Shown here piece after piece: positions 31,978-36,874 of a stretch of DNA of 64,000 nt. This DNA is from Methanococcus voltae (GTDB taxonomy: Archaea > AGJL01 > Methanococci > Methanococcales > Methanococcaceae): assembly GCF_024807655.1 (NCBI RefSeq), contig NZ_JANUCR010000001.1, positions 1 through 64,000 of the forward strand, given 5' to 3'. The translations under genes and the position numbers were made by a program. Under the pieces are notes generated by a model, which was not told where the DNA came from, searched no databases, and saw nothing but the letters and a program-made list of their open reading frames with translations. The stretch's first letter is position 1, and each line of letters starts with the position of its first letter.

Positions 31978-34900
31978 TTAGTTTACTTTTTTAGCTTCGC
32001 CATTTACCCATTCTACGTAAATAGGTTCTTCAGGAACTTCTTCAAGTGTTTTGAAGTATTCAACAGCAGCTTGTGTACCAAATCTATCTGAACCTGCGAG
32101 TAATACAACGGTGTACTCTGATATTATACCCGTACCTTCTGATTTAACAGTTATCATTTGTATTACACCTTTATTTTCTCCAGGGTTTGAATTTGTGATT
32201 GATACAGCAAATTCATTCATATAAGCATTTGCTAAGGGGTTAGCTAATGGACCACCTACGATAATTGTATCATCGTTTATTGTGTATCCTTCTGTACATT
32301 TATTAACTGAGCTCTTTAATTCTGTTGCATAGTTTTTGTCTAAGTTTGCATAAACTATGTTTGCACTTGAAATTAAATTGCTTGTAGTTATTGATTCTGA
32401 AGCACTGCTACTGTGATGTCTGCTTGAGCTTGATGATGAGCTTGAGCCAGAATCTGATGTTGGCAATGTTTTTTCCATTTCGACTTCTACTTCAGGGTCT
32501 TGTAATAATGTTAATTCTAATTCTTTAGCACCATTATGGTCTAATATTTTATACCATCCGAATTCTGATTTTTCAGTGGTTATTGTATGTTCTGTAGCAT
32601 TTGCTGTAATTGTTATTTTCTTTAAGCTAAATGCACTTAAAGGTATTCTGAATATTACATATCCTTTTTCAGTGTTATTTGTAGCAACGAATTTAATTTT
32701 TGCTGAAACAACGTTTGAACTTGTTGTCATTTCTGAAGTAATGTTTGATACATTAAATCCATTGTTTAAAACTTGTCCATTTGTCATTGCTTCTTTAATT
32801 TTATTCAATGATTCATTTGCTTGAGTAGTTGTTTTTACTTCCGTATTTAACTCTTCAGCTTTTTGAGTTGTAGTTTCAAGTTTTAACATTAATTCTTTTG
32901 AGATACTTGTTGAAACGTTTTCCATTACAGGAATATCTAATGTTTCATTTTCTAAAGCAATTGATGTAATACTATAACCGTCGTGTTCTTCAGTTGTGAT
33001 ATTACTAATGTTTAACTTATCCCAAACGTCTGCACTAATATTAATAGTTTTTAAAGCTTTTTTAATTGTATTATTTGTAATCAATTGGTTAACAAATATC
33101 TTACCATAACTAAAGCTATTTTCGTCAGATAAATCTACTTTTTTAACAACTACACTGCAAGGTGCTGATGTGTTAATTATTCTTAAGTTGAATTCTGCAA
33201 GTCCAAATTTACCATATTTATCTTCGGTAAAGTTGAAACCACCGAAATAGCCTGTTTCGTTATTAAAGTTTGACAATGTACCAGCTAATTCATAATCACA
33301 AACTACTAAGTTCTCAAGGTTTAATGTACCTTCATATCCAGCACATTTTCTGATTTCTTCTACATTACTTACGTTAAATGAGATATTGAAATTTTCTGCA
33401 TCAATATCTGTTTTTGTAATGTTTACATATACAGGTTTTTCAACTATCTTTACAGATTTTGAAACCCTGTTGTTTGATTCATTTTCTTCAGCTATGATGT
33501 TGCTTTCATCTGCGATAATTGTTATTAAAGTGCTTGTTCTTGCTTCAACGTCCCAACTGAACTCTAATGTTTCAGTGGTATTTTTTGCTAATGAATCGAT
33601 TGTTTTTTCAATAGGGTCATTAGCATCAACGTATAATTTTACCTTGAAAGGTGATGCAATATCCTGATGACCATCATTTCCGACGACAACTGATAAAGTT
33701 GCATTTTGTCCAAAGTTATATGTATCTGGGATAGAGGTACTTAGTACAATATCAGGACCTTCTACGGTTATTTTTGTACTATTTAATTCTACATTGTTAA
33801 ATTCAGCAGCTACATCGGAAACTGATACGTTGGTTAATGTGAAACTTGACATACCAGGTTTTAAAGCTTTAAATTTAGCTTTTGCAACTGTAATATTGTC
33901 ATTTATTCCTTCACTGATGTTTGTAATTATTGCATAATTAACTACACCATTTGCGTTGTCAATATCAATGTTTTTTAAACTAATATTGCCTTCTGAAATT
34001 TCAAATTGGAAATCTTCACAATTTACAATACTTTTATCGAAATGAAGAACACCTTCAAATCCACATACTTTCCTAAAACCATCCATTTTGTTTAAATCAA
34101 TACTTACGTTGAAATATTGGCTTGTGTTAACTAATGAACTGTTTTCAGTTAAATTTAATGAAATTGGTTTTTCAACAACAATTATTGTTTTTGAAAGTTT
34201 CTCATTTGTAGTATATTCATCTTCAAAGTTTAATTCTGCAATTATTTTTGTACTTGCCTTTTCTGGAGTCCAATCAACAAGTATGTCTTGTTTTTCGCCT
34301 GCAGTTAATGGATTTATTTTAACAGTTTTTAATAATTCAGAATCTGCATAAATTGATATTGTATATGTTGTCTTATTTTCCAAAGTTGCTGTACCATTGT
34401 TTGAAACTGATACATTTACTTTTGCGGGTGTTGAGTAATAAGGTTTGTCAACACTTATTGAATCAATTGAAATATCTGGAACTTCAACATCGATTGTAGT
34501 GTCTTTAGTAGCAGTTTTTCCGTCGGTGTTTTTAACCACAACGGTTCCTGTTAAACTACCTACGCCTAAAACCATATCAAATAATTTTACTTCATATGCT
34601 TTTGTAGTATCATTGTACATCATCGTGTAATTTGTATCTTCTAACGAAAAGTTTACACATAATGTATCATTTGCATAATTAGGGTCAGTTATCTTCGCTG
34701 ATACAGTTAAAGTATTTGTTCCTTCGTAGATTGATTCTGGAAGTACTGTTATTTCCTGAATAATAGGAGTGTTATCTAAAACTTCAACACTTGCATCCAA
34801 GATATGTTCATCAGTTGGCATTGTAGAAATACCGCCTTGATTGGTAATATCCAAATTTCTTAATCTTATTTCGTTTGATGAAACATTGAAAGTTTCAAAT

Positions 34901-35289
34901 GTAAGATTAGCGATATTAACGTTGCTTTCAGTGATTCCGCCGCCCATCCACGCTAAACTAATTGAATTATCAGATACATCAACAGTTTTAAGACCTGCTG
35001 TATTAGCAATGCCGGATAATTGAATAGCGGTCAAATTTACATTACTTGAATCATATACAAAATTTGATTCAAATGCACTTATAGTTATGTTCGAATTGTT
35101 TACCCAAAGTTCTAATACGAACTGGTCTCCATTATTTACTTGCTGTGTTTGAGGAGCTAAGCTAACAACAATATTATCATTTGTAGCTGCTGAACAACTC
35201 CCTAAACTTACAGAAACCATAAAAATTGCCAATAATGACATTATTATGATTTTTAACTTGTTTTTAGAGTTTATTTTTGAATTTTTCAA
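31978..35289 (-). CDS. secreted S-layer-type scaffold protein with three cohesin-like domains
   Basis: A 1103-residue surface protein. A signal peptide (residues 1-35) is followed by cohesin-like domain 1 (37-172, typical NNGDQFVLELWVNNS... FVYDSSNVNLTAI), an Ig-like domain (173-271), CARDB 1 (272-375), cohesin-like 2 (377-511), CARDB 2 (512-617), a more divergent cohesin-like 3 (620-740), a linker region, a Ser-rich stretch (944-966) and a C-terminal module with VGGPLANPLANAYM and VVLLAGSDRFGTQAAVEYFK, typical of methanococcal S-layer proteins. Many NxS/T sites suggest N-glycosylation. The start is TTG after GGTGTTAA. Upstream on the same strand is a dockerin protein, the expected partner. 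Confidence 0.8.
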   Translation of the reverse strand: MKNSKINSKNKLKIIIMSLLAIFMVSVSLGSCSAATNDNIVVSLAPQTQQVNNGDQFVLELWVNNSNITISAFESNFVYDSSNVNLTAIQLSGIANTAGLKTVDVSDNSISLAWMGGGITESNVNIANLTFETFNVSSNEIRLRNLDITNQGGISTMPTDEHILDASVEVLDNTPIIQEITVLPESIYEGTNTLTVSAKITDPNYANDTLCVNFSLEDTNYTMMYNDTTKAYEVKLFDMVLGVGSLTGTVVVKNTDGKTATKDTTIDVEVPDISIDSISVDKPYYSTPAKVNVSVSNNGTATLENKTTYTISIYADSELLKTVKINPLTAGEKQDILVDWTPEKASTKIIAELNFEDEYTTNEKLSKTIIVVEKPISLNLTENSSLVNTSQYFNVSIDLNKMDGFRKVCGFEGVLHFDKSIVNCEDFQFEISEGNISLKNIDIDNANGVVNYAIITNISEGINDNITVAKAKFKALKPGMSSFTLTNVSVSDVAAEFNNVELNSTKITVEGPDIVLSTSIPDTYNFGQNATLSVVVGNDGHQDIASPFKVKLYVDANDPIEKTIDSLAKNTTETLEFSWDVEARTSTLITIIADESNIIAEENESNNRVSKSVKIVEKPVYVNITKTDIDAENFNISFNVSNVEEIRKCAGYEGTLNLENLVVCDYELAGTLSNFNNETGYFGGFNFTEDKYGKFGLAEFNLRIINTSAPCSVVVKKVDLSDENSFSYGKIFVNQLITNNTIKKALKTINISADVWDKLNISNITTEEHDGYSITSIALENETLDIPVMENVSTSISKELMLKLETTTQKAEELNTEVKTTTQANESLNKIKEAMTNGQVLNNGFNVSNITSEMTTSSNVVSAKIKFVATNNTEKGYVIFRIPLSAFSLKKITITANATEHTITTEKSEFGWYKILDHNGAKELELTLLQDPEVEVEMEKTLPTSDSGSSSSSSSSRHHSSSASESITTSNLISSANIVYANLDKNYATELKSSVNKCTEGYTINDDTIIVGGPLANPLANAYMNEFAVSITNSNPGENKGVIQMITVKSEGTGIISEYTVVLLAGSDRFGTQAAVEYFKTLEEVPEEPIYVEWVNGEAKKVN

Positions 35290-35411
35290 ATTAACACCAT
35301 TCTAAATTCAATAATAGTTTTCTTTTGTTTTTGTTTTTTATTTTTAGTTTAATATTTATTTTAATATTTATTTTAATAGTTATTTTAATAGTTATTTTAA
35401 TTCTAATTTTA

Positions 35412-35423
35412 TACTATATAGTA
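35412..35423. promoter_or_regulatory. palindrome TACTATATAGTA upstream of scaffold gene
   Basis: A perfect 12-bp palindrome about 125 bp upstream of the cohesin-protein start. On the minus strand it runs into GTATAAAA, so it may overlap a TATA box and act as both promoter and operator. It gives the scaffold gene its own possible promoter, in addition to read-through from the dockerin gene. Confidence 0.35.
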
Positions 35424-35512
35424 GGAATAATAATTAAATTCAAATTATAATGCATAATAATCATCATTTAATTATTTTATTTTCATATCCCTTATTAATT
35501 AATTTAATAAAA

Positions 35513-36874
35513 TTATGCTGTATAAGGCGTTGCTTCGTTAGTTTCTGGATTATATGCCAATAAATACTTAGTTGTACGCCCTTCAAAGTCTTCTGGGTAA
35601 AGTATAGTTCCCATATCCATTAAAATTTCATCAGTGTTTACAACACCCGTCTGATAGAAGTCTGCTGAATAACAGAATATTTTTCCATTGATTACAGGGT
35701 CTAACTGGTCATAACCTGCGTGTCTTTCTTTGAAAGCAGACAAATAAGTTATTGCAGAAGATACAACCCAAACATCTGCGTTTTTAGTAGTTTCAAGGAA
35801 TTCTTCTTTACTTATTTTTGCAAATCCTGTTCCCGTGTAATCTGTGAACAAGTATGTTGCTTTACAGTTTTGACAGATACCTCTTGCATAGTATGATTGC
35901 GCACAAGGGATTGATGCGTATCCTTTACTTGTAATGTATCCCCATGAAACTTCCGGAGCATCATTACCTGAAGCACTTCTCTTAGCATTCAAAGCTTTCT
36001 TTTCTACTTTTGAGAAGTATTCATTTGCGTATGGTTCTTTATTATAGAATGCAGCTATTGCTTTTGCCCATTCACATCTACCTAAGAATGTCTGTTCTGT
36101 CCAGGAAGGGAGTGCAACACAAGTGATACCCTTGTCTTCACAATTACTGTATATTGTACTACCCCTATTACCGTCAAGGGAATTCATAACGAAATCAGGA
36201 TTTAATTGAGTCAATTTCTCGTAATCCATACTATCAGGATGACCTAAATCAACTATTTTACTATCACTGCCTTCTACGCCCTCTTTATGCTCATTCATAT
36301 AATCAAAGTACCACGTTTTTGTGGTGGTAGAAATGCCACTTATGGTATCCATAATATCATTATTTTCATCCATTGCGCATAGGTAAGCTACGTGTACTGA
36401 AGATGTTGGCACAATATTCTCAACGGGGGTGATGATTACATCGTCGTATTTACCAGTTGCCCAGTCAGGTATTGCTTGGCTTTCATTCTTCAATAAATAT
36501 CTTACATCTGCTCCGTCGGTGAATATCTTATATTCATAACTTTCACCGTTGTATGGGTTTACTTCCATACCGTCAGCGTCATAATATACTAAATCCATAC
36601 TTTCAGCATAGGAAATAGGTTCTGACATTTTGTCGTAATAATTGAACAAATAAACAACGTCTGAAACTGAGATTTTATTATCTGCGTTAACGTCTCCGTC
36701 TTCAATGTCCATATTTCTATTATTAAACAAATAAACAACGTCTGAAACTGAGATTTTACCATCACAATTGACGTCACCTAATCTATAGTCGTAATTTCCA
36801 CTCGCAAAACTTGATGGAATTAAAAAAATTGTTAAGAGGATTAAAAAACCCATTTTAGTTTTAAAACTACTCAA
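35513..36874 (-). CDS. dockerin-fused Fe3+/corrinoid-type solute-binding protein
   Basis: A 453-residue exported protein. Residues 1-25 are a signal peptide. Residues 32-83 form a type I dockerin with two Ca-binding loops, DVNCDGKISVSD and DVNADNKISVSD, each followed by VVYLFN. The rest (about 85-453) is a type III periplasmic-binding domain of the siderophore/cobalamin family (PF01497 type), for example LGRCEWAKAIAAFYNKEPYANEYF and DVWVVSSAITYLSAF. The start is TTG after AAAGGAGGCTAAG. It is upstream of, and on the same strand as, the cohesin scaffold gene (223-bp gap). No permease or ATPase genes adjoin. The ligand (iron chelate, corrinoid or tungstate-like) is not determinable. Confidence 0.85.
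   Translation of the reverse strand: MSSFKTKMGFLILLTIFLIPSSFASGNYDYRLGDVNCDGKISVSDVVYLFNNRNMDIEDGDVNADNKISVSDVVYLFNYYDKMSEPISYAESMDLVYYDADGMEVNPYNGESYEYKIFTDGADVRYLLKNESQAIPDWATGKYDDVIITPVENIVPTSSVHVAYLCAMDENNDIMDTISGISTTTKTWYFDYMNEHKEGVEGSDSKIVDLGHPDSMDYEKLTQLNPDFVMNSLDGNRGSTIYSNCEDKGITCVALPSWTEQTFLGRCEWAKAIAAFYNKEPYANEYFSKVEKKALNAKRSASGNDAPEVSWGYITSKGYASIPCAQSYYARGICQNCKATYLFTDYTGTGFAKISKEEFLETTKNADVWVVSSAITYLSAFKERHAGYDQLDPVINGKIFCYSADFYQTGVVNTDEILMDMGTILYPEDFEGRTTKYLLAYNPETNEATPYTA
36645..36758. repeat. 33-bp perfect direct repeat inside dockerin
   Basis: Positions 36645-36677 and 36726-36758 are identical over 33 nt, 81 bp (27 codons) apart. They encode the KISVSDVVYLF part of each dockerin loop. 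Identity at third codon positions implies recent duplication or gene conversion. Confidence 0.9.

Follow-up and report, generated by a model that had tools for sequence, protein, structure and literature searches.

Outside cellulosomes, the function of cohesins and dockerins has been described as unknown (PMC5244752; similarly PMC9012536). The closest described systems are found in ANME archaea, in which dockerins were reported on NikA/OppA- and TroA-type binding proteins, together with proteins that carry up to five cohesins (Chadwick et al. 2022, PMC9012536). According to the same paper, binding between archaeal cohesins and dockerins has been verified in other work (PMC9012536). As ANME archaea already provide published examples, binding proteins with a dockerin are not new in principle.

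Here we describe two genes of Methanococcus voltae, located in a 64-kb stretch of DNA that was analysed as a whole (the window), which encode a dockerin-tagged solute-binding protein (SBP1) and a cohesin scaffold. We consider it probable that they are part of a cohesin-dockerin-anchored corrinoid ABC import system of the Methanococcales. As in the ANME archaea, dockerins on ABC substrate-binding proteins, multi-cohesin proteins and S-layer domains occur together. In ANME, however, the multi-cohesin proteins themselves bear a dockerin, and neither a partner nor a locus nor a role in anchoring was established (PMC9012536), whereas the Methanococcales have a conserved locus with an importer, membrane-type cohesins and an exchange between lipobox and dockerin. 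With the type I cellulosome of bacteria the system shares the module families, as judged by profiles, and a multi-cohesin scaffold with a wall-attachment module. Unlike in the cellulosome, we found no enzymes and no carbohydrate-binding module, the putative cargo is the binding protein of an importer, the dockerin is N-terminal, and anchoring appears to be by membrane segments at the C-terminus and by an S-layer module of archaeal type. Importers of the BtuFCD type have the same class III binding fold, FecCD/BtuC permeases, FecE/BtuD-like ATPase and cobamide-salvage neighbours, but here the binding protein would be held by a dockerin and not by a lipid, and two binding proteins per genome are the rule (types A and B; the window genome has two of type A). 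BtuG of Bacteroides, which is a surface-held extra B12 capture protein ahead of a transporter (Wexler et al. 2018, PMC6143338), is comparable by analogy only, being a different protein with a lipoprotein anchor in an organism with an outer membrane (PMC6143338). In the literature searched, no published description of the Methanococcales locus was found; as far as this search extends, what is new is the locus with its cohesin partners of membrane type, the exchange of lipobox and dockerin, and the link to corrinoids.

Results

SBP1 (35513..36874, minus strand; 453 residues, TTG start) is a secreted protein in which a two-loop dockerin is fused to a binding protein of BtuF/FepB fold. Its signal peptide (about residues 1-25; 36800..36874, minus strand) was set against those of lipobox proteins and has no lipobox cysteine. 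The dockerin module occupies residues 30-84 (36623..36787, minus strand), with calcium loop 1 at residues 34-45 (36740-36775) and calcium loop 2 at residues 61-72 (36659-36694), both on the same strand, and was recognised by Pfam, by alignment, by a solved-structure profile and by counting the loop pattern. Against Dockerin_1, SBP1 scored 19.3 bits in hmmscan, under the cut-off of 22.9, and 25.3 bits in the genome search, where neighbouring stretches are included and the cut-off was passed. In an alignment of 26 homologues, the calcium-ligand columns D34, N36, D38 and D45 of the first loop and D61, N63, D65 and D72 of the second were invariant. A degenerate dockerin loop pattern occurred twice in the 64 kb, both times inside SBP1, where 0.05 occurrences were expected from shuffles. 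Two D-x-N-x-D...D loops with a helix after each, the pattern of a type I dockerin, were present, the helices of the SBP1 model spanning residues 43-51 and 70-83. The solute-binding domain was matched by Peripla_BP_2 over residues 174-404 (35663..36355, minus strand; 5.7e-21), and the AlphaFold model of SBP1 (pLDDT 89.5, pTM 0.85) had class III binding proteins of the FepB/CeuE/BtuF type as its best PDB matches, including CeuE, haem binders and BtuF. A profile of the 26 homologues likewise led to solved dockerins (5lxv_B, 2.4e-4) and to siderophore-type binding proteins. NCBIfam gave a name to neither SBP1 nor the scaffold.

The scaffold gene (31978..35289, minus strand; 1103 residues, TTG start) lies on the same strand, with 223 nt between it and the SBP1 gene, and encodes a secreted protein with an S-layer-type C-terminus. 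In a direct Pfam scan CARDB was found at 1.2e-20 and S_layer_C weakly; the Pfam Cohesin profile did not detect the window scaffold, and profiles of orthologues were required. Among solved structures, the profiles of domain 1 (residues 42-173; 34771..35166, minus strand) and domain 2 (residues 374-512; 33754..34170, minus strand) matched cohesins only (5lxv_A 7.9e-9; 1g1k 1.3e-4), which supports their assignment as cohesins. Chain A of 5lxv is the best match of domain 1, and chain B of the same structure is the best dockerin match of the SBP1 family. The profile of a third domain (residues 614-752; 33034..33450, minus strand) matched no cohesin among solved structures. Because the domain-1 and domain-3 profiles match each other (3.6e-4 to 4e-8, Z=1000), the third domain is read as a divergent relative, homologous to domain 1, and a docking role for it is doubtful. 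The orthologous scaffolds at L067 and L072 have three Pfam Cohesin stretches each, and both proteins passed the cut-off. In the scaffold model the candidate cohesin domains were beta-rich, with pLDDT of about 70-94, but Foldseek with the whole protein gave generic multi-Ig matches only, and sequence profiles were preferred to it.

Between these domains lie CARDB spacer 1 (about residues 268-373; 34171..34488, minus strand; two CARDB stretches in Pfam) and CARDB spacer 2 (residues 512-610; 33460..33756, minus strand). They are followed by a Ser-rich disordered segment (about residues 945-965; 32395..32457, minus strand; pLDDT <50 in the model) and by a C-terminal S-layer outer-domain module (about residues 985-1103; 31981..32337, minus strand), which reached 36.9 bits against S_layer_C in the genome search, above cut-off, and matched the solved S-layer protein 9fsa. 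The S_layer_C module is also carried by about a dozen surface-type proteins of the window genome (G000, about 13) and looks like a general wall-attachment module. The initial annotation had described two secreted open reading frames, a two-loop dockerin fused to a siderophore/cobalamin-type domain in the first, and CARDB spacers, a Ser-rich segment and an S-layer-type module in the second, all of which agrees with our analysis; of the three cohesins that it counted, domains 1 and 2 stand, and domain 3 does not match solved cohesins.

The other parts of the system are scattered over the window genome, with permeases, a second dockerin-tagged binding protein (SBP2) and three further cohesin-type proteins on contig C3 and an ATPase on contig C7. 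At E<=1e-3 the genome has two dockerin proteins, SBP1 and SBP2 (L004:9482-10852), the latter answering the earlier suggestion that other dockerins be sought. Both are binding proteins, and no dockerin-bearing polysaccharide-degrading enzyme was found among the dockerin proteins at this threshold. The SBP2 dockerin shares 89% identity with that of SBP1, and the two binding domains are 41% identical. SBP2 has as neighbours two BtuC-type permease genes, CbiZ, a CobN-type chelatase, ChlI/ChlD-type subunits and a nitrogenase-like D/K pair (L004:2615-5648). This pair adjoins CbiZ, BtuC and CobN, has its top NCBIfam scores with NifE, far under cut-off, and was seen in such a setting only here and in the two genomes most closely related to the window genome; it may act on an imported tetrapyrrole. 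A 308-residue Cys/Gly/Ala-rich repetitive protein with GGQACGGDAC-type repeats is encoded at L004:18357-19283.

A second BtuC pair is located at 171.8-174 kb of contig C3 (L115:6814-9020), without an adjoining binding protein, and is a candidate partner of SBP1. The ATPase on C7 is 74% identical (residues 1-259) to the ATPase of the relatives' locus. A class III binding protein fold, a FecCD permease and a FecE-type ATPase, the parts of an importer, are all present. The initial annotation had rightly stated that no ABC permease is adjacent in the window and had placed the transporter elsewhere, where we found it as the two BtuC pairs on C3 and the ATPase on C7. The window genes themselves are not linked to a permease; this genome has its permeases on contigs C2 and C3, and in relatives the linkage exists. 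The three further cohesin-type proteins, COH794, COH318 and COH195 (C3:217756-221739), include one with a Pfam Cohesin match (COH794). COH794 and COH318 have a predicted C-terminal transmembrane helix, and COH195 ends in an amphipathic segment in most species, with no clear transmembrane helix. As two of the three (L005) end in transmembrane helices, docking at the membrane, next to the permease, is no less likely than docking confined to the wall. The earlier proposal of wall docking, with up to three binding proteins per scaffold, is upheld as regards the cohesin-dockerin pair, the dockerin on a nutrient-binding protein and the S-layer-type module of the scaffold, but the third cohesin is doubtful and the scaffold is one of four cohesin-type proteins. 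With the parts at several places in the genome, the C3 cohesins are candidate partners of SBP1, and the choice of permease pair is likewise a candidate assignment.

We then compared 36 Methanococcales genomes; a phylum-wide search gave the same 36. The dockerin-cohesin system was conserved in about 25 of them. In 21 loci the gene of a type A dockerin binding protein immediately precedes the scaffold gene in the same orientation, with gaps of 26-223 nt, and a single-cohesin gene often lies divergently upstream of this pair. At three loci (L064, L071, L072) the scaffold and binding protein are on one strand and COH195, COH318, COH794 and BtuC genes on the other. Because the permease is within the same locus in these relatives, the separation of SBP1 from its permease in the window genome is explained by rearrangement. 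In one Methanothermococcus-type relative we observed a separate second locus (L068:4239-12500; G023:C2:484000-503000), where a dockerin protein of 1751 residues (37.8 bits) adjoins cohesin/scaffold-like proteins of 413 and 501 residues.

In the window genome, a lipobox cysteine is found in the three other Peripla_BP_2 proteins and is absent from SBP1 and SBP2. The reverse arrangement was seen in five Methanocaldococcus-type genomes (G002, G004, G007, G008, G014), which have both types of binding protein with a lipobox in place of the dockerin; in their orthologues, the match to the family profile starts only at about residue 81-105. No cohesin was found in these five genomes with the Pfam, COH318 or COH195 profiles. 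Among the classified genomes, which are not independent of each other, cohesins were present in 24 of 25 with dockerin binding proteins compared with none of five with lipobox binding proteins. The lipobox pattern missed one of 10 lipobox leaders, which reads LPGC, and fired on one of 41 dockerin proteins. Within each binding-protein type the lipobox forms make up one clade, so the exchange counts as one evolutionary event and its p-value is not to be taken at face value. The closed Methanococcus-type genome G015 is the single exception, with a type B dockerin protein (L092:9053-10324) and no cohesin by three profiles. The genome of Methanocaldococcus sp. SG1 (G005) combines dockerin binding proteins with one cohesin protein with a terminal hydrophobic helix and has no scaffold alongside the binding proteins. 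These sequences are best read as cases in which a dockerin takes the place of the lipid that anchors the binding protein of an ABC importer.

Type A and type B binding domains are only about 30% identical. Within a genome, the dockerins of the A and B paralogues had a mean identity of 79%, compared with 68% when partners were shuffled (p=5e-5); in the same shuffling, the binding domains gave no effect of belonging to one genome (p=0.32). In three genomes (G023, G033, G013) the dockerin DNA of the paralogues was 97-99% identical, with sharp edges and unrelated upstream sequence, and this identity and these edges point to recent copying of the dockerin module. For the window genome we considered recent gene conversion and found it the less likely cause, as the two dockerins use the same codon at only 27 of 51 shared residues. 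Since synonymous sites have diverged, selection for the same dockerin interface is more likely there. Whether by copying or by selection, the two binding proteins appear to be kept to a common docking partner.

The substrate was approached through gene neighbourhoods. In the window genome the transporter adjoins CbiZ (adenosylcobinamide amidohydrolase), CobN and ChlI/ChlD-type subunits. The binding protein has bacterial relatives that match it from past the dockerin onward and are only about 24-32% identical to the archaeal proteins. Rfam detected a cobalamin riboswitch in 17 of the 23 bacterial loci that were scanned, and also in L171, with no other RNA family. In the window itself and in those archaeal loci that were scanned, Rfam detected no RNA family. 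L171 is a B12-salvage operon with CobU, CobT, CobS, a CobC-superfamily phosphatase and a TonB receptor, and L189 is another, with CobD/CbiB, CbiZ, an adenosyltransferase and a TonB receptor. As CbiZ and CobN adjoin the transporter and the bacterial relatives lie in cobalamin-riboswitch operons, a corrinoid cargo is suggested, and the substrate of the SBP1/SBP2 system is probably corrinoids. Protein structure does not discriminate between the candidate ligands; the closest solved structures are mostly siderophore and haem binders.

Discussion

In the mechanism that we propose, SBP1 would be secreted without a lipid or membrane anchor, and its N-terminal dockerin would clip onto cohesins, presumably in a calcium-dependent manner. 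The membrane-type cohesins (COH794, COH318, COH195) would keep the loaded binding protein close to the BtuC permease. Further copies of the binding protein would be held at the wall by the window scaffold, through its S-layer-type C-terminus, forming a reservoir for capture. The dockerin would be a non-covalent anchor, doing the job of the lipobox in ordinary archaeal importers. What the sequences show are the identities of the domains, the conserved linkage of the genes, the missing lipobox, its exchange with the dockerin in step with the absence or presence of cohesins, and the homogenised dockerins; binding, calcium dependence, location, the reservoir role and the substrate are inferred from these. 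More generally, we lean somewhat towards the view that in archaea that have no outer membrane, cohesin and dockerin form an interchangeable and reversible substitute for the lipoprotein anchor, with paralogous binding proteins that differ in their binding domains sharing membrane and S-layer sockets for corrinoid capture.

Other readings of the same data have to be weighed against this mechanism. The scaffold could be an S-layer-bound rack that stores binding proteins off the membrane while the membrane cohesins serve other partners, which is in essence the view of the initial annotation and would suit its S_layer_C module and the position of its gene, next after that of the dockerin protein in 21 loci. 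We regard such display at the wall only as improbable, however: Methanocaldococcus sp. SG1 keeps dockerin binding proteins without an adjoining scaffold and with only a hydrophobic-helix cohesin protein, the lipobox exchange points toward anchoring in the membrane, and the cohesin trio adjoins BtuC genes in several relatives. A reading without any cohesin partner, in which calcium in the EF-hand-like loops serves only to stabilise the binding protein or to make it dimerise, would account for the dockerin protein of G015 with no detectable cohesin, and it draws on the fact that dockerin-cohesin binding is read here from sequence. It is hard to reconcile with cohesins and dockerins occurring together in 24 of 25 genomes and both being absent where the lipobox appears, with a homogenisation of the dockerin that is independent of the binding domain, and with the adjoining dockerin and scaffold genes, and we hold it to be very improbable.

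A further alternative keeps the anchoring and changes the cargo, to an iron chelate, haem or a nickel tetrapyrrole (an F430-related compound). The preponderance of siderophore and haem binders among the closest solved structures would fit, and the nitrogenase-like pair and CobN-type chelatase beside SBP2 would also suit a nickel tetrapyrrole. Against this, CbiZ adjoins the transporter, and the bacterial relatives are found in B12-salvage operons under cobalamin riboswitches; a cargo other than corrinoids is possible but, in our judgement, unlikely. We retain dockerin-anchored corrinoid import as the preferred reading.

The Methanococcales system provides a concrete, conserved and genetically testable case of cohesin and dockerin outside cellulosomes, in methanogens. 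Here the fastener appears to hold the binding protein of an importer, and the occurrence of a lipobox where cohesins are absent amounts to a natural control experiment. Collectively, our results suggest that the scavenging of a cofactor, and not the digestion of plant polymers, maintains cohesin-dockerin pairs in the Methanococcales.
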